DNA of 47,261 bases, from positions 1-47,261 of the forward strand of contig CAMDJH010000012.1 in assembly GCA_945900455.1 (NCBI GenBank). The letters run 5' to 3'. This DNA comes from Akkermansia muciniphila (GTDB taxonomy: Bacteria; Verrucomicrobiota; Verrucomicrobiia; Limisphaerales; UBA9464). The stretch's first letter is position 1; each line of letters starts with the position of its first letter. The notes under the pieces are model-generated. The model worked only from the letters and a program-made list of their open reading frames with translations, was not told the origin of the DNA and did not search any database. Made by a program: the position numbers and the translations under genes. Of this stretch, positions 1 through 7,266 are shown one piece after another.

Positions 1-1045
1 TCAAGAGGCCGCCGAGGCGTTCGCGAGTCTGGATGTCCCCTGCCATTTCACCGATCCGATCCTCGGGCGCTGGAAACAGGATCACGTTGCCCTTGCCTTG
101 GTGATTTCGTTCCGCGTGGAAATGATTCACGTAGTTTTCAAGGCAGTGGCGGAGAGAGCTTTCTCCGAAAAGAATCATTTTCGACAGGAGCTCGGTCTTT
201 ACCGATCGAATCCAGCGTTCGCAATGGGCGTTCAGATTTGGACTCCGCGGCGGCAATGTCACCGCTTTGATACCGACGGCCTGGAGGATCCCGTCGAACA
301 CTTCGCAGAACTTTGTATCTCGATCGTGTAGCAGGTATTTGCAGCCACATAGGAATCCGGTGTCTGCCATGGTCATGTTCCGGGCCATTTGCTTCATCCA
401 GGCGAGGTCCGGTGAGTGCGTCATCCCCGCGATACAAACCTGACGAGACCCTACTCGCATGAATACCAGCACGTAGTAGGTGATGAGCCCGGCGGAGGTC
501 CAAACTTCGGCGGTGAAGAAATCCACGGCAGCCAAGACCTCGGTGTGGGTACGAATGAATTCCCGCCAAGAAGTCTTCCGCTCCCGATCCGGAGCTGGAA
601 GCAGGCCGTGGCGTTCGAGAACATTGCCAACGGCCTGATGACTGGCCTCGTAACCCAAGTTGCTGAGCGCACCCACAATCCGGCGATAGCCCCAACTTCG
701 GTTCTCACGAGCCATCTTGAGGATCAGTTCTTCGATGGAGCTATCCGTATTGGGACGACCAACGGGTGAGCGGTTTTTGGACCCATCGAACTTCTTGGCG
801 ACAAGCCTGCGGTACCAGCCAAGAATGGTTTCAGGTCGAATAATCTGCGCAACTTGCTCCAGGGCTTTCCTGCCGAGACGCTGGCCGATCTCGGCCAAGC
901 TGATTCGCTCCGGGTCCGTGAGCTTCAATCGCCTCTTGATCTGGTTCTTGAGAATCCGGTTCTACGTCACCAGATACTCGTTGCGCAGGAGGAGTTCCTG
1001 ATCAACCGAACCGGAGATGTACGCCAGCATTCGTTTCCAATTCAT
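1..1045 (-). pseudogene. DDE integrase-core transposase with internal amber codon
   Basis: Reading leftwards from the ATG at 1043-1045 gives MNWKRMLAY..., then a TAG at 962-964 (codon 28), then an uninterrupted frame to the window edge. The same codon in copy 2 is GAG, so this is a single-base nonsense change. After the stop come a helix-turn-helix region (ISLAEIGQRLGRKALEQV) and an rve-type DDE core: Asp in AAVDFF, Asp in HDRDTKF, Glu in NAHCERW. All catalytic residues are intact. The track omits this frame because it runs off the window. Re-initiation after the stop could still give a nearly full protein. The exact IS family was not assigned. Confidence 0.85.
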
Positions 1046-1135
1046 CGACGAGACTTAACCGAGCCTACCGCCTGCGAGCAATCTTCTGATCGCCCTGCAA
1101 ATCCTTGAATATTCGTAGGTTCGAGCTTTTTGACC
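1..1135 (-). mobile_element. IS element with DDE (rve-type) transposase, copy 1, left end outside window
   Basis: The right terminus is seen at 1123-1135 (GAGCTTTTTGACC). It is the exact inverse of the left terminus of copy 2 at 3561-3573 (GGTCAAAAAGCTC), which defines 13-bp terminal inverted repeats for this family. The element contains one transposase reading leftwards, whose last codons lie beyond position 1. By comparison with copy 2, only about the last 40-50 bp of the element are missing. No target duplication can be judged because the left flank is absent. Confidence 0.85.
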
Positions 1136-1139
1136 CTAC

Positions 1140-1237
1140 GGGATCCCACCCTCTCCGGCACGCCGATTGGCTTCAGAGCTTAAGTTTCCGGCCGCTCCAG
1201 CGGCCCTCCTGCCTCCTACCCATTTCCAGATGAATTA
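1140..1237 (+). repeat. Dispersed repeat, inverted copy at 37090-37186
   Basis: About 98 bp starting GGGATCCCACCCTCTCCGG and ending CCAGATGAATTA recur in inverted orientation at 37090-37186 with scattered mismatches. The repeat begins five bases after the right end of IS copy 1. The distant copy also lies beside a transposase remnant. It has no coding capacity that I can see. Confidence 0.8.
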
Positions 1238-1305
1238 ACCGCACGTATTCTCCTCCGATTCTACAATTTCCTCTTTCAAATCACTGAAATCTACTCACAG
1301 ATTAG

Positions 1306-1515
1306 GCGGGAGAGCCCTTATTTGGTTCCTTAAACTTCCAATCGCCCGTTGACTTCGAACGCCAAAAACTAACATACAGTCCTGCTTTTTCTGTCCCTTT
1401 TATCGAAGCAAGCCCAGAACAATACAACGAGCGCATTGATCGTGTGGGTGGCGGATTAGCCGCAGAGTTTCAAGCAATGTCCTATCAATATCCTGAAGAG
1501 CCAAAAAAACAATGA
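1306..1515 (+). pseudogene. C-terminal remnant of an unrecognised gene
   Basis: After a TAG at 1303-1305 the frame stays open for about 69 codons, with protein-like composition ending in QYPEEPKKQ. Its TGA overlaps the ATG of the next gene as ATGA at 1512-1515, the arrangement of translationally coupled genes. There is no good start codon in frame, so the 5' part has been lost, probably during insertion of the flanking repeat or IS. It is too short and start-less for the ORF track. No function can be assigned. Confidence 0.4.
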
Positions 1516-2534
1516 AAATGTCCCGACTGCTGCTTCTTTCGAGCTTTATGTGCGCTGCTTTGATCGTGGGCTGCAAAGAAAACAGCAAGGAAATCGAGGC
1601 GCTTCGAAAAGAACTGGGAGAGCTAAAGGTGAAGGCTAATCAAGACCAGCAATCTCAGAAACTGCAAAGCGAAATCAGCCGAATGCGAGAGGGTGTGTTG
1701 GAAGGATCAGTATTCATAGTCACAAAGGCAAGGGAAAACGTAAAGATGGGTTTGGTTACCGTCTCGCTCTTTGATTCTACACACGCGCGAATGGCAGTCC
1801 AAAAGGTCCGTACTGATTTGCGTCGCAGATCGGATGAGATTGCTGCACAAGCAAAACCGCTTTTTGCCGATGTCGAAACGGCTCGAGAAAAGTACAAGGC
1901 GGTAGAGCTTGAATACAAAGCCGCAAGGGAAGCGGCAGCGGTCGCGAAGGAGAACCTTATTAAGCAATTTAACGCGATACCGGGACGCTCACGTTTGAAC
2001 CATTTTGACTTGAGCAATCCGGAATACCGGGAAAGCGACGATGCCCAAACAATAGAGCGAAAGAAGGCAGTGTATGCAGAATACAGGTCCAAGGTTGATT
2101 CCGCTGAAGACACTAGAAAAGGGATTGCGCTGAAGGGCAGAGCAGAATATGACAAATTCCACCCCCTATATCTCGCCTACAATAGCTTGACAAAATCCCA
2201 GCGGGACTTGATAAAGTCTTATGAGCAACTTTGCTTTGCGGCTTTGGGATCGCCAGTCTCTGCCGTACAAACTGACGCGGATGGGAAGTTCAAGTTGATG
2301 ACCCCAAGGTCTGGTGAGTTCGTTCTCAGTGCATCAGCTTCGCGTGATGTTGGTAGTTCGTCCGAGACCTATTTTTGGATAATTACGCATTCGCTTGATG
2401 GGAAAGATCACAGCCAGATATTATTGAGTAACGACAATAAGACGGATGCATACGGCGCGACATCGATAGTCGAAAGATCGGGAATTGAAGAAAGTCCGTA
2501 TGCCAAGTATGAGTATGAAGTCGGAATGTGGTGA
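1512..2534 (+). CDS. Lipoprotein with coiled-coil inserted in a carboxypeptidase-regulatory-like fold
   Basis: 340 aa. A short hydrophobic leader ends in a lipobox (ALIVGC, Cys at about 21), so the mature protein is probably membrane-anchored outside the inner membrane. Residues 25-60 are charged heptad-like coiled coil. A beta-rich stretch (GSVFIVTKARENVKMGLVTV, about 66-85) is followed by roughly 150 residues of Lys/Glu/Ala-rich helix. The beta fold then appears to resume near 250 (TDADGKFKLMTPRSGEFVLS), which resembles a carboxypeptidase-regulatory-like repeat. The helical part would thus be an insertion. The start overlaps the stop of the upstream remnant as ATGA. Base composition is richer in A+T than the window average. 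Function unknown. Confidence 0.7.
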   Translation: MKMSRLLLLSSFMCAALIVGCKENSKEIEALRKELGELKVKANQDQQSQKLQSEISRMREGVLEGSVFIVTKARENVKMGLVTVSLFDSTHARMAVQKVRTDLRRRSDEIAAQAKPLFADVETAREKYKAVELEYKAAREAAAVAKENLIKQFNAIPGRSRLNHFDLSNPEYRESDDAQTIERKKAVYAEYRSKVDSAEDTRKGIALKGRAEYDKFHPLYLAYNSLTKSQRDLIKSYEQLCFAALGSPVSAVQTDADGKFKLMTPRSGEFVLSASASRDVGSSSETYFWIITHSLDGKDHSQILLSNDNKTDAYGATSIVERSGIEESPYAKYEYEVGMW

Positions 2535-2597
2535 GCCATTGCATTTTAAGAAACAAAACAAAAGGCTTTTATTCGCCTAAACATACTGTTGGACCGC

Positions 2598-3080
2598 ATG
2601 GCCACACCACTACCAATCACACCAGTTTCCGCCCTAACACCATACACTTGCGGACTTGCCTGCCTTGAGTCGGTTTTCTTAGACATGAAACGCCCTCTTG
2701 ACCAGTGCGAAATGCTTAAAAGGTATTCTTGGTTGTTGATCAATCCAGACCCAAACAAAGGACATGAGTATGGAGCAGCTAGTGATGTTCAGATTGTTGA
2801 TCTTTGTTCTCACCTCGGTTACAAAGTCGGTAAATTTCAAGATTTCAGACAACGGAACGTTGAGAAGGCATTTCAGGACGCTCTTGATAATGGAGCGGGA
2901 GTTTTGATTATGGCTTTGTGGGAAAAAAAAGATGCTCATTGTGTTCGCCTTTCTAAAATAAAAGTTCCGGGAGTATATGAAGTCATCAGCCCATCATTGG
3001 GAAGTGCAATCCCATTAGAGATTACCTTTCCACAACTGATTTCTTGGAATTTTAAATTTATTATTGTGTCGTTGGGATAA
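2598..3080 (+). CDS. C39-like papain-fold peptidase family protein
   Basis: About 160 aa from the ATG at 2598; a TTG nine bases upstream is the track start. TPYTCGLACLESVF near the N-terminus matches the catalytic Cys helix of C39-type peptidases, and DAHCVRLSKI carries the expected His. The usual Asp or Asn after the His strand is replaced: VYEVISPSLG has Ser where families show DP. It may be inactive or a divergent C39-like domain. There is no signal peptide and no ABC transporter part. It lies 63 bp after the lipoprotein gene in the same AT-richer stretch, and its TAA overlaps the ATG of a small downstream ORF (TAATG). Confidence 0.6.
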   Translation: MATPLPITPVSALTPYTCGLACLESVFLDMKRPLDQCEMLKRYSWLLINPDPNKGHEYGAASDVQIVDLCSHLGYKVGKFQDFRQRNVEKAFQDALDNGAGVLIMALWEKKDAHCVRLSKIKVPGVYEVISPSLGSAIPLEITFPQLISWNFKFIIVSLG

Positions 3081-3241
3081 TGGCCACTGTAAAAAATATC
3101 ACTGGCATCCCACAGGATTTGGGAAAGGCATCAATATCGGGAAATCCCACATCGCAACAAATATCGTCGCCGAAAATAAGTCAATTCATTAGCAAGAGCA
3201 ATGGGGTCAAACCTGAACTATTGACATTTGAAAATGTCTAG
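3080..3241 (+). CDS. Small ORF coupled to the C39-like gene, 3' end probably replaced
   Basis: 53 codons starting MATVKNITGIPQ, with the ATG overlapping the preceding stop (TAATG). It is below the length cut-off of the ORF track. The last third (from about NGVKPELL) is encoded by sequence resembling a mobile-element leader (GGGGTCAAACC at 3203), so the original 3' end has probably been lost. It has no Cys residues, signal peptide or membrane segment. A peptide partner or substrate of the C39-like protein is conceivable but is only an inference from position. Confidence 0.35.
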   Translation: MATVKNITGIPQDLGKASISGNPTSQQISSPKISQFISKSNGVKPELLTFENV

Positions 3242-3300
3242 ATGGAGTATGCGGATGGCAAGACCGTTAATCGCGGAGCGTCAAAAAAAGCGATGTCCTA
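3203..3300 (+). pseudogene. Relic of REP-associated (Y1-type) transposase leader and start
   Basis: GGGGTCAAACCTGAACTATTGACA is followed after about 50 bp by an ATG at 3254 reading MARPLIAE before the frame degenerates. REP-associated tyrosine transposases commonly begin MARPLRIE and are preceded by a GGGGTCA-type leader. Only the leader and the first few codons are recognisable. No HUH motif or catalytic Tyr is present. Confidence 0.35.
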
Positions 3301-3454
3301 TCAATAATGAACGGAGAAGTCGGTCAGTTCCACTGCGGAAAAAGGGTCGGTTCTTGGTATTAACAACTGCTCATTCCAGCATCATGCCCCGGGACATCGC
3401 TCGCAAATTTCGAGTTTAGGGGTCAGAACGGAATGGCACTTAAATAGGAGGCAA

Positions 3455-3560
3455 CGGGGCCAGATTAATCCATTTGATATATTGGGAGCAACAGGCTGAA
3501 TTTGAAGATGGCAAGACCATTGGGAGTCAATTTGCAGAAATCATTGACCTGTCCCCGTAT
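3455..3560 (+). pseudogene. Second relic of the same leader/start, cut by IS copy 2
   Basis: GGGGCCAGATTAATCC, then about 40 bp, then an ATG at 3508 reading MARPLG before the similarity ends. The arrangement parallels 3203-3300. The sequence stops abruptly where the left inverted repeat of IS copy 2 begins at 3561. No catalytic region remains. The stretch 3300-3455 between the two relics contains no ORF that I trust. Confidence 0.3.
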
Positions 3561-3932
3561 GGTCAAAAAGCTCATGCGGCATCTCGGTAATAAAATTTCA
3601 AGAGGCCGCCGAGGCGTTCGCGAGTCTGGTTGTCCCCTGCCATTTCACCGATCCGATCCTCGGGCGCTGGAAACAGGATCACGTTGCCCTTGCCTTGGTG
3701 ATTTCGCTCCTCGTGGAAATCATTCACGCCCTTTGATCTGGTTCTTGAGAATCCGGTTCTCCGTCACCAGATACTCGTTGCGCAGGAGGAGTTCCTGATC
3801 AACCGAACCGGAGATGGTCGCCAGCATTCGTTTCCAATTCATCGACGCGACTTAACCGAGCCAATGGCCTGGGAGCAATCTCCTCATCACCTTGCAAATC
3901 GTTGAGGTTTGGTAGGTTCGAGTTTTTTGACC
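3561..3932 (-). mobile_element. IS copy 2, internally deleted, both ends present
   Basis: The copy runs from GGTCAAAAAGCTC (3561-3573) to GAGTTTTTTGACC (3920-3932), 372 bp in all. It carries the transposase C-terminus (..RLGGLLKFYYRDAA, then stop, read leftwards) joined near 3728 to the N-terminus. Roughly 800 bp, including the helix-turn-helix and all three DDE positions, are absent. The retained N-terminal part has GAG where copy 1 has its amber codon. With both ends kept it resembles a non-autonomous, MITE-like derivative. I saw no clear target duplication. Confidence 0.85.
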
Positions 3933-4044
3933 GCACGCCCATCAACTCGGCTGAATCTGGCGAACGCTGGCGGATCAATCGCCAATCCCTATCGATGTTT
4001 CGGGCAGCATCACTTTTTTCGGGCTCACTTGCCATGATGCCGCC

Positions 4045-4518
4045 CTATTCCCCGGCATCCTTCCGTCCAGCCTTCTCTTCCTTCGGCTCCCACCCCGCCA
4101 ACTTCGCGAGGGTGTAGATCAAATCGCGGAGTCCCTCCGTCCGCCGGCAGCGCTCGATCAGAAAGTCGGCGGCCTGCTCAACCTTGGCGCGCTCGGCCTT
4201 TTTCTGTGATCCGCGGACGACGATCTCGATCCTTTCCGACCCGGGTCCATACAGATGGTTCTCGAGGTGAGCTCTCACGAGAGCTGCATGCTTTTTCGGA
4301 TCCGGGCTGAGATGCTGAGCAATCTCAGTCAGGGTATCCACATGGAGGGTGAGGTTTCTCCCCCGCACATACCGGGACACGGCACCCACATTTTTGCCCA
4401 TCCTCCGGGCAAGTTCGCTGACATTGATGCCTGCCTCCGCCATCTGGCGTTCCATTTCCTTTCCGAGTGGGCTCATGAGATTCTGGGTTGTAAGTGGTTC
4501 TGTTGAAGCATTGAGCAC
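4045..4518 (-). CDS. XRE-family helix-turn-helix regulator
   Basis: 157 aa. Residues about 20-70 form a Cro/CI-type helix-turn-helix (INVSELARRMGKNVGAVSRYVRG...LTEIAQHL). A C-terminal helical region and a Lys/Glu-rich tail follow and may mediate dimerisation. It is transcribed leftwards, away from the small ORF at 4561. It lies next to two ribbon-helix-helix proteins and an integrase, so it is probably the repressor or accessory regulator of the integrative element. There is no peptidase domain of the LexA or CI type. Confidence 0.75.
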   Translation of the reverse strand: MLNASTEPLTTQNLMSPLGKEMERQMAEAGINVSELARRMGKNVGAVSRYVRGRNLTLHVDTLTEIAQHLSPDPKKHAALVRAHLENHLYGPGSERIEIVVRGSQKKAERAKVEQAADFLIERCRRTEGLRDLIYTLAKLAGWEPKEEKAGRKDAGE

Positions 4519-4560
4519 GGCATTGACGAAGCTGGAATGAGGTTTCGATTCCCCGCCTCC

Positions 4561-4758
4561 ATGGAAAAATTCATCGCCTTATTGCAGACACTGAGCGCAC
4601 CGCAACAGGAGATCCTACTTTGGGAACTGGAATGGCGGGTGTCCGTGATCAAGAAACACCTCGTGCCCGCGTCGCCACCTTCACTGCCGCTTTCTCCACC
4701 GCATCGACAGCCGAATCAACCGGGGTCTTCTCCGGATGATCAATCTTTTGAGGCGTAA
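4561..4758 (+). CDS. Small hypothetical protein
   Basis: 65 aa from the ATG at 4561 (track start 4537). The first half (MEKFIALLQTLSAPQQEILLWELEWRV) is a plausible amphipathic helical pair. The second half is Pro/Ser-rich and low in complexity. It overlaps the 3' end of the ribbon-helix-helix gene on the other strand by about 110 bp, and the Pro-rich tail could simply mirror that gene. It is divergent from the XRE gene with about 40 bp between. No family recognised. Confidence 0.35.
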   Translation: MEKFIALLQTLSAPQQEILLWELEWRVSVIKKHLVPASPPSLPLSPPHRQPNQPGSSPDDQSFEA

Positions 4759-4945
4759 TCGGCCTCCCGAACTTTCGTTCCATCTCCTCTTCCAACTCTT
4801 CCATTCCTTTTTCCAGCGCAAGGGCGACTACCTGGGACCGTTTTCTGTGGTCCAATTCGGCGATTCTGAGAACTCGCTCCAACAAATTCCCACCGAGCCA
4901 AATGCTAATACATTGTTTGGTTTCTCGCGATTTCACACGTTTCAC
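4649..4945 (-). CDS. Ribbon-helix-helix-like DNA-binding protein
   Basis: 98 aa if started at the GTG at 4943-4945; the track frame opens at 5014 with an implausible Cys/Trp-rich leader. The core KQCISIWLGGNLLERVLRIAELDHRKRSQVVALALEKGM fits a beta strand plus two helices of the Arc/MetJ/CopG fold. A Glu-rich helix and a basic Ala-rich tail follow. It is divergent from a second RHH gene at 5034 with about 90 bp between, a natural spot for an operator. Probably a regulator of the integrative element. Confidence 0.55.
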   Translation of the reverse strand: MKRVKSRETKQCISIWLGGNLLERVLRIAELDHRKRSQVVALALEKGMEELEEEMERKFGRPITPQKIDHPEKTPVDSAVDAVEKAAVKVATRARGVS

Positions 4946-5033
4946 AGCAAACCTATAATGCCAACAAAACCAACAAAAGCAAAACAATCCTTTGACCCAA
5001 TGTTTACATCTCACTACACAAAAAACATTCCTT

Positions 5034-5258
5034 ATGAAACAAGCCGTCTCGGCACAAATCGAACAATCCGACTACGCCCGCATACGCGCATGCGCCACCC
5101 ATCATCAGCTTTCCATCTCGTCTGTAGTCCGGATCGTGATTAGCCGAGGGCTTTTGGCCTTGGAAACAGGGATTCTCGGGGAGCCTGTTTCGAAACCCGG
5201 CCAGTCCACCGTTGAACCGAAGCGCCGGAAGAAGAACCTCAAGCCCCTCCCCGACTGA
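5034..5258 (+). CDS. Ribbon-helix-helix-like DNA-binding protein
   Basis: 74 aa from the ATG at 5034 (MKQAVSAQIEQSDYARIRACATHHQLSISSVVRIVISRGL). The first 45 residues match the strand-helix-helix layout of CopG/Arc regulators, and a basic tail follows (PKRRKKNLKP). The track start at 4992 adds a leader overlapping the promoter gap and is less likely. The next gene begins 37 bp downstream on the same strand. Typical of control or nick-site binding proteins on small mobile elements. Confidence 0.6.
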   Translation: MKQAVSAQIEQSDYARIRACATHHQLSISSVVRIVISRGLLALETGILGEPVSKPGQSTVEPKRRKKNLKPLPD

Positions 5259-5295
5259 GCCCGTTCTCACCTTCACCCCTCCCCCAAACCCCACC

Positions 5296-5742
5296 ATGAA
5301 CCTCCTCAATCTCCGTGGCCCCGCCAGATCTGAGTCCCCGCCAAAACCGGATCCACAGTTTATCTCGCCGATCTTTGTTCCGGTTTTTGATCCGGCACAG
5401 CCTGATCGGTGCGAGGACACCATCCAAATGGAGGCAGTGGGCGAGATGCAGGTCGCCATGCACATAAATGGCGAGACCTTTGACTTCTCAATCTTCCAGA
5501 TGCGGGCGGCCCTGACCGGCCTCGATCGCCGTCGGACCGCGGGTCCGACAACTCGCAAGCTGCCGCAATTGACGGTCGAGCGGTACAGTGATCAGAAGGA
5601 GATGCCGCTCGTCCTGGCGCCCCACGGGTGGACGTGGAGCAACGGGATTGTGCTGAAGCTCTGTGGCGAGAACCTGCTCGTCAATGAGGCCACCCTGCGC
5701 AGCGCCCTCGCCTCGGTGCCATTGCCGTTCCAGATGGTGTAG
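5296..5742 (+). CDS. Hypothetical protein of the integrative element
   Basis: 148 aa from the ATG at 5296 (MNLLNLRGPARSE); the track start at 5212 overlaps the preceding gene. Composition is normal and soluble, with no signal peptide or membrane segment. The N-terminal 40 residues are Pro-rich; the rest is mixed alpha/beta (MQVAMHINGETFDFSIFQ, LKLCGENLLVNEATL). I recognise no domain. The position between an RHH regulator and the excisionase-like gene suggests an accessory function of the element. Confidence 0.5.
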   Translation: MNLLNLRGPARSESPPKPDPQFISPIFVPVFDPAQPDRCEDTIQMEAVGEMQVAMHINGETFDFSIFQMRAALTGLDRRRTAGPTTRKLPQLTVERYSDQKEMPLVLAPHGWTWSNGIVLKLCGENLLVNEATLRSALASVPLPFQMV

Positions 5743-5864
5743 TGGTCTCCAGTGCCTTTCCGCCAAAACCCGGTGCTCACGGATGGCATACGATAAACAT
5801 TCCCGCCACTGATGTGTAATAACCGGTATCGACGCGGAGATATGAAGACCAAAGTGAAAACCCA

Positions 5865-6113
5865 ATGTCACGTTCACCAAAACTCTTGAATGGCGTTCAG
5901 CTCGCGAAGGCGAGTGGGTATAGCTACACCTTTGTGTCGGCGGCCAAGCGTGCGGGCTTCAAAGCTACGATTGGGCGGCGGTATTCCCTGGAATCGTTTC
6001 TGAAGTGGGTAAAAGAACATCCGGATTTTCGGATTTCTGATTTTTATTTAAGGCGGCCCAAGCTCCATCCAGCTCGTTGTCCTGGATCCGGCGGTAAATC
6101 CGATGAACCGTAG
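5865..6113 (+). CDS. Excisionase-like helix-turn-helix protein
   Basis: 82 aa. LLNGVQLAKASGYSYTFVSAAKRAGFKATIGRRYSLESFLKWVKEHPDF has the winged-helix pattern of excisionase/MerR-type proteins: a helix-turn-helix followed by an RYSLESFLKWV wing and helix. The 3' third overlaps the 3' end of the integrase gene on the opposite strand by about 150 bp. The last 25 residues may therefore be constrained by the integrase rather than by their own function. Presumed role: directionality factor for the adjacent integrase. Confidence 0.55.
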   Translation: MSRSPKLLNGVQLAKASGYSYTFVSAAKRAGFKATIGRRYSLESFLKWVKEHPDFRISDFYLRRPKLHPARCPGSGGKSDEP

Positions 6114-6942
6114 ACGAAGCATGCCCCACCATTTTCATCACCACCGGTTCGGGCACGCCAGCGCGTTCCATTTTGGAAATGAAACTCACTCGCGTGGAAT
6201 GAAAGCTGACGTCCCCAAATCCGGGATGGTGGCTGCGGAGGTAGTCGAAAAATTTCCACCAAATGAACGAGGCTTTGATTCCTTTGAGTACCGGCCACGT
6301 GAATTGGCGCTGCGATTTGGCGATCTGTTCCAGGAGTGGTCGGATGCTGGGATTGATCGCTCTCGTGTCCATGCGGCCTCCCTTCACGCGGATGGTAGCC
6401 GTCCACCGGTCAAAGCTGATTGCAGCGATCGGCACGCATGTTTCCATCAGTCGCCATCCCTGGGCCATGGCGATCTCGAAGCTGACGTGCAGCATTTCGG
6501 CGTGGTCGCGTTCAATTCCATCGGATGCGGTTGCCACCCGATGTACAATTCTCTCCCGGATTTTGGAATTGTAACGGCCTTCCTTGTTTCTCCATCCCAC
6601 GTACTCCATGCACATTTCCCGGGTGACCTTCTCTGGGCAATCAACACCCTTGATTTGGAGGTAGCTCGTCCAGGTTTTCCAGGCCCCCAGCACGCGCTCG
6701 CCACTCCTGGATCCTTTGAGGTACCGGGTTGCGAGGTACGTAGGGACCCATGCTTCCCAGTGATGGGCCGCCCGTGCCGTAACTTTGCCAATATCCTTCA
6801 GATCCCACTCGGCCTTCATGTGCCGTGCGTTCCTCGCTTCGCTTGGGACCGCATAGCGAAAACCGGTGGAAACGCGCTTGGTGCTGTCCGCGGATTTTAT
6901 CCACCAAAACGGAGAACCCGGTCGCTTATACAAAGAAGCCAT
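5965..6942 (-). CDS. Tyrosine recombinase / phage-type integrase
   Basis: 325 aa. The N-terminal DNA-binding part (MASLYKRPGSPFWWIKS) and a core-binding SAM-like domain (about 60-150) precede the catalytic domain. The catalytic domain has the expected residues: Arg in GWRLMET, the HxxR box in FHSTRVSFI, a His in GHASS, and the nucleophile Tyr in VHRIYRRI. It would catalyse site-specific integration and excision. The gene faces away from the tRNA-Ser fragment at 7030-7071, the classic int-att layout, with tandem repeats in the gap. Overlaps the xis-like gene tail to tail. Confidence 0.85.
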   Translation of the reverse strand: MASLYKRPGSPFWWIKSADSTKRVSTGFRYAVPSEARNARHMKAEWDLKDIGKVTARAAHHWEAWVPTYLATRYLKGSRSGERVLGAWKTWTSYLQIKGVDCPEKVTREMCMEYVGWRNKEGRYNSKIRERIVHRVATASDGIERDHAEMLHVSFEIAMAQGWRLMETCVPIAAISFDRWTATIRVKGGRMDTRAINPSIRPLLEQIAKSQRQFTWPVLKGIKASFIWWKFFDYLRSHHPGFGDVSFHSTRVSFISKMERAGVPEPVVMKMVGHASSTVHRIYRRIQDNELDGAWAALNKNQKSENPDVLLPTSETIPGNTAAQS

Positions 6943-6948
6943 GCACGA

Positions 6949-7028
6949 GTGTGCCTTAGTGTGCCTTAAGGGGTAAACAAAAGTGAATAAAAGTGAATAA
7001 AATCAAACATAATCAAATAGATTCAAAC
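6949..7028. repeat. Tandem short repeats between int and att (possible arm or operator sites)
   Basis: Two perfect head-to-tail copies of GTGTGCCTTA occupy 6949-6968. Two copies of AAGTGAATAA lie at 6981-7000, followed by ATCAAAC/ATCAAAT/TTCAAAC variants up to 7028. The stretch is AT-rich and covers the region just upstream of the integrase start. The location fits arm-type integrase or excisionase binding sites, or the int promoter/operator. This is an inference from layout. Confidence 0.5.
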
Positions 7029-7029
7029 A

Positions 7030-7071
7030 CCCCCTGTCGTATCGGGGGTTCGAATCCCCCTCTCTCCGCCA
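7030..7071 (+). other. Attachment site: 3' fragment of a tRNA-Ser gene
   Basis: GGGGGTTCGAATCCCCC forms a perfect T-arm, followed by TCTCTCCG and CCA, as at the 3' end of class II tRNA-Ser genes. Just before it lies what looks like the end of a long variable arm. The 5' acceptor strand, D-arm and anticodon arm are absent, so this is not a functional tRNA. It is the sequence expected where an element integrated into a tRNA 3' end. The matching intact tRNA gene is not in the window. Confidence 0.7.
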
Positions 7072-7158
7072 ATTTCTATCTCCCTATCAATAAGGACGTT
7101 AATCGATCCATAAACCATCCATTCGCGAGATCGGGCAAAAGATGAGCGGAACCCCTAC

Positions 7159-7266
7159 GGTAAAAATACTCGCGCGGCCTCTCGGTAGCAGAAATTCAGG
7201 AGGCCCCCGACGCGCTCGCGAGTCTGGATCTCCCGTGACATATTGGTAGATTCAAGTTTCTTGACC
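7159..7266 (-). mobile_element. IS copy 3, short degenerate scar
   Basis: The copy runs from a decayed left end (GGTAAAAATACTC) to a decayed right end (CAAGTTTCTTGACC). In between are the last roughly 60 bp of the transposase gene, recognisable as AGGCCCCCGACGCGCTCGCG against AGGCCGCCGAGGCGTTCGCG in copies 1 and 2. Everything else is deleted. It sits about 90 bp beyond the attachment site, on the chromosomal side. Confidence 0.7.

Follow-up and report, generated by a model that had tools for sequence, protein, structure and literature searches.

The block at positions 4045-7071 is probably the attR-side integration module of a prophage-type element inserted at tRNA-Ser(GCU), of which it would now be a remnant. 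The window analysed, 47,261 nucleotides long, is the entire contig G000:C12 of a 6.4 Mb assembly that is about 90% complete. We infer that the lost or unassembled body of the element was a phage, that its integrase is dead, and that the block has been stranded. The genes named in the first-pass annotation, which were an XRE regulator, two RHH proteins, an unknown protein, an xis-like gene and a tyrosine integrase, were all found where it had placed them. The features at this end of the window are the following:

about 1-1138: IS copy, cut by the contig edge, with TIRs like GGTCAAAAAGCTCGAACCTAC
3562-3931: internally deleted IS copy
4045-4518, minus strand: XRE/Cro-type HTH regulator, 157 aa (Pfam HTH_26, E=4.9e-6; PHROG regulators, E ~1e-6)
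4649-5014, minus strand: RHH-like repressor, start codon uncertain (weak PHROG repressor match, E=0.007)
5034-5258, plus strand: RHH/Arc-like small protein (weak PHROG Arc-like match, E=0.028)
5296-5742, plus strand: 148-aa protein, no relatives found among 293 genomes of the order
5865-6113, plus strand: Xis-like winged-helix protein, 82 aa, whose gene overlaps int at its 3' end by 149 bp
5965-6942, minus strand: tyrosine integrase (int), 325 aa (Pfam PF00589, E=2.4e-9; PHROG integrase, E=1.6e-14)
6948-6967, plus strand: tandem 10-bp direct repeat AGTGTGCCTT x2, directly 5' of int (0 in 100 shuffles); probable integrase arm sites or int operator
6981-7000, plus strand: second tandem 10-bp direct repeat AAGTGAATAA x2, between core and int (shuffle fraction 0.002); possible integrase arm sites
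7038-7071, plus strand: attR core, the tRNA-Ser(GCU) 3' fragment from variable arm to CCA
about 7157-7265: short MITE-like IS derivative, just beyond the tRNA fragment

The proposal that an integrative element ends here at a tRNA-Ser 3' fragment was borne out, and the target can be named: all 34 of the 34 nt at 7038-7071 are identical to the intact tRNA-Ser(GCU) gene of a genome of the same genus, G015 (E ~5e-10, far beyond chance), and the segment is likewise identical to other tRNA-Ser(GCU) genes within the family. The identity to the intact gene ends abruptly just 5' of 7038, within the variable arm. The integrase gene starts at 6942 and reads away from this tRNA 3' end. A tRNA-Ser(GGA) on contig C2 was considered as the partner (94% over 32 nt); its variable arm is different, and the fragment is therefore of the Ser-GCU type.

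The tRNA-Ser genes of the assembly are Ser-CGA, Ser-TGA and Ser-GGA. No tRNA-Ser(GCU) gene was found anywhere in it, so that the regenerated tRNA must lie in the unassembled part or have been lost, and ARAGORN detected no whole tRNA-Ser in the window. The check proposed at first pass, for an intact tRNA-Ser and a second core at the other flank and for the same gene set elsewhere, gave a divided answer: no second core copy was present in the window, including 1-4045, or in the rest of the assembly, while the order of integrase, xis and tRNA fragment recurs in relatives. Nor did the assembly yield the remainder of the element. The position C48:2625, which carries the sole other genomic match to the arm-repeat pair, was rejected as the left end; it has no core nearby and looks like chance. 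Two loci of the same genus were also discarded as empty sites, one in G016 (C251), where the match begins only at tsaB and the sequence before it differs, and the Ser-GCU locus of G015, which has nothing else in common with the window.

It had been remarked that the left boundary was not in view, and this is the case. The contig and the window are the same; position 1 falls within an IS copy, where the assembly breaks off, and the left end of the element is thus out of sight. The GC content is 45.8% at 1141-3544, 55% at 3938-7071 and 60% at 7072-47261. Taking into account the atypical GC of the first of these intervals together with the IS copies, the foreign block probably extends to the contig edge. 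The description of the element as compact found no support, considering that the contig ends in an IS, that a second IS lies at 3562-3931, that the GC is low over 1141-3544 and that one relative spans 84 kb. The internally deleted form of the IS has more than 50 matches across the genome. In the low-GC interval there is a gene pair at 1512-3080, one product of which is lipoprotein-like and the other small and, by eye, similar to a cysteine peptidase; Pfam, PHROGs, NCBIfam and PADLOC gave no convincing family match for either, and the pair may be cargo of the same element.

The argument for a remnant comes from the state of the integrase. In an alignment of 19 members, the window protein and 18 relatives, it alone has an in-frame loss of 57-61 residues following residue 126; the lost block is kept by 18/18 relatives and holds the conserved segment NTA..EL..L....EAV.....NP...L. 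By its position, this block would correspond to the C-terminal part of the core-binding domain plus the linker. The SAM-like domain of Pfam was matched in the integrases of the relatives G070, G160 and G241 and not in the window protein. The catalytic residues Arg, Lys, HxxR, His and Tyr are all there (R164, K187, H248, R251, H274 and Y283, none of which varies across the family alignment); the complete core-binding domain and linker are not. The structure model was confident only in parts and resembled tyrosine recombinases at modest significance. Since 57-61 conserved residues are gone, the integrase is probably dead, and for the same reason, of the two options offered at first pass, a satellite or a remnant, the second is favoured; the first fares worse, as the elements that carry the two closest integrases are of phage type. 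The loss of part of a core-binding domain need not abolish all activity, and one may suppose that the block closes off a still larger, intact prophage or island, with a 325-aa integrase that functions even though its core-binding region is shortened. The frame is open, the catalytic residues are kept and the contig simply ends at an IS, as such a reading would have it; we hold it unlikely, given that the missing block is retained in every aligned relative and that G070, G160 and G241, unlike the window protein, match the SAM-like core-binding domain.

The arrangement of int and tRNA fragment is a constant property of the integrase family, which is present in 36 of the 293 genomes of the order; a phylum-wide sample of 388 genomes, with a stricter cut-off, added only one more besides the window's own. 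In 23/26 related loci a tRNA T-arm and acceptor lie antisense to int and just upstream of it, always in this orientation, and two of the three loci devoid of the fragment have little upstream sequence. The same geometry was seen in 8/9 viral contigs. ARAGORN recognised no whole tRNA at the int-side loci of the relatives, hence these pieces are fragments, and int is regularly found at the displaced-fragment end. The fragments of the family are mostly of the tRNA-Gly type; those of the window and of G070 are tRNA-Ser(GCU). With such recurrence, the idea that IS activity placed a tRNA-Ser fragment beside an unrelated integrase, to which the IS and MITE copies flanking both sides lend some colour, is refuted in practice and we give it next to no credence.

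Tandem 9-10-bp repeats stand directly 5' of int in most members tested, and the elements of G238 and G070 have similar repeat pairs at their tRNA ends; in the family they are best read as putative integrase arm sites. In the integrase tree, the window protein grouped with those of G070 and G160 (97/92), inside a clade of xis-bearing loci (91/84). The window protein shares only about 40% identity with these two. Its long branch leaves its precise position in the tree uncertain. No match to the family was obtained in 50,697 phage and 72,556 plasmid records.

Homologues of the Xis-like gene adjoin int in G070, G160 and IMG/VR contigs. In all eight loci compared (the window, G070, G160 and five IMG/VR contigs) int and the Xis-like gene are tail to tail, with open reading frames overlapping by 95-179 bp (window 5865-6942; L138:8272-9607; L139:8987-10259; L181, L183, L184, L186 and L187). 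In each of the eight overlaps the last part of the xis reading frame thus lies antisense to the stretch of int around the catalytic tyrosine. The model of the Xis-like protein showed a weak likeness to the MerR/Nu1/excisionase fold, and a scan of the viral contigs with the Xis alignment returned nothing by itself. Where IMG/VR contigs share this int/xis module, matches to endolysin, tail, RusA and exonuclease genes lie close by.

The element of G070 could be delimited. It is about 84 kb long, between exact 40-bp repeats at C27:24132-24171 and 108057-108096 that correspond to the 3' end of its own tRNA-Ser(GCU), with the intact tRNA at one and int at the other. Among the proteins of this interval are a tape-measure protein (E=1e-28), a beta clamp, a primase-like protein and helicases of the SNF2 type. 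Apart from these and the integrase, the 20 proteins scanned in the element (L138, L148-L151) mostly had no PHROG or Pfam match. A 180-aa gene of G070 (G070:C27:36343-36885, equal to L148:2343-2885) was dismissed as a prophage marker, as it has relatives in 255/293 genomes, some with internal stops; it is probably a widespread repeat or a housekeeping-related family. Two other complete elements were delimited, one of about 21 kb in G156 and one of 4.05 kb in G238, at tRNA-Gly(CCC) (L169:8005-12125, G238:C84), the latter encoding a SRAP protein, an ankyrin-repeat protein ending in an HTH_17 domain and the integrase. In G070, G156 and G238 the intact cognate tRNA is at the opposite end. A further element seems to begin beyond the G238 fragment, and in G011 one tRNA-Gly is followed by two fragments in succession; tandem arrays are suggested in both.

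A compact island or satellite of about 3-7 kb, made of the regulators, Xis, the integrase and perhaps the 1512-3080 cargo and mobilised with a related phage as helper, would fit the 4.05-kb island known in the wider integrase family, and, as had been pointed out, the visible segment contains no replication, packaging or conjugation genes. Nevertheless its left end is outside the view, the integrase looks broken and the closest int/xis relatives, in G070 and IMG/VR, are phage-type, and for this last reason a prophage-type origin is preferred; the compact alternative seems doubtful to us. A stronger form of it, in which a stable compact island reduced to the regulators, Xis and a shortened, active integrase is moved by related tRNA-Ser(GCU) phages and would be a verrucomicrobial satellite, we rate as a long shot. 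As to the prophage-type origin itself, the int/xis module is that of a phage lineage, and no structural or packaging genes were found in the visible 7 kb. Because structural genes are not visible and the rest is unassembled, the block was filed as prophage-type and not as a prophage. Two further points count against the prophage-type remnant: integrases of the wider family also mobilise a non-phage island of 4 kb, and among the regulators only one RHH protein has a counterpart, the RHH/Arc-like protein (5034-5258), which is weakly similar to an open reading frame beside int in G160. The PADLOC and NCBIfam matches of the XRE gene were set aside as generic HTH. For the 148-aa protein, Pfam and PHROGs provided no function and a scan of the viral contigs was also empty.

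Considering this anatomy, the tyrosine integrase would have inserted the element into the 3' end of tRNA-Ser(GCU), so that an intact tRNA would be restored at the far left end (attL), and the displaced old 3' end would have stayed beside int at attR, at 7038-7071. The binding sites of the integrase would be the core and the tandem repeats immediately 5' of its gene, the Xis-like protein would bias the reaction toward excision, and the XRE and RHH proteins would form the control region. What is seen here is the anatomy; the steps of integration and excision follow what is generally known of tyrosine integrases. The integration steps also rest on the definition of Islander-type islands (PMC4383910).

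The block alone is a routine integration scar and belongs to a known kind of element. As in the tRNA islands and prophages of the Islander type (PMC4383910), the 3' fragment of a displaced tRNA (7038-7071) lies beside a tyrosine integrase (5965-6942) in the right orientation, and the related elements share the regenerated tRNA at the other end and the tandem arrays; unlike them, the window has its cognate intact tRNA and its left end absent from the assembly, so the island is not delimitable. With the G070 element and the IMG/VR relatives the window shares the integrase family, the overlapping tail-to-tail xis, the tandem repeats and the position of int at the displaced-fragment end, and with G070 alone the tRNA-Ser(GCU) target; it differs in showing about 3 kb, in its other regulators, in the shortened integrase and in an integrase identity of about 40%. 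The island of about 4 kb in G238 has the wider integrase family and the same int/tRNA-fragment geometry, but uses another tRNA, has no xis overlapping int, carries SRAP and ankyrin cargo and falls on a separate branch of the tree. Tycheposons (PMC10872708), compared by their description, also have a tyrosine recombinase, a tRNA-linked border and a wide range of sizes, whereas the nearest relatives of the window are phage-type.

The value of the block lies in the entry it gives to an integrase family of Verrucomicrobiota with a constant att geometry. With the precise att sites of this family, limits can be set to mobile elements of the phylum, whether islands of about 4 kb or a phage-like element of 84 kb. 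The family also includes pairs: in G011 and G031 two of its integrases lie tail to tail about 35 bp apart (L140:7925-9978 and L141:7606-9659), with a tRNA-Gly fragment upstream of only one of each pair.
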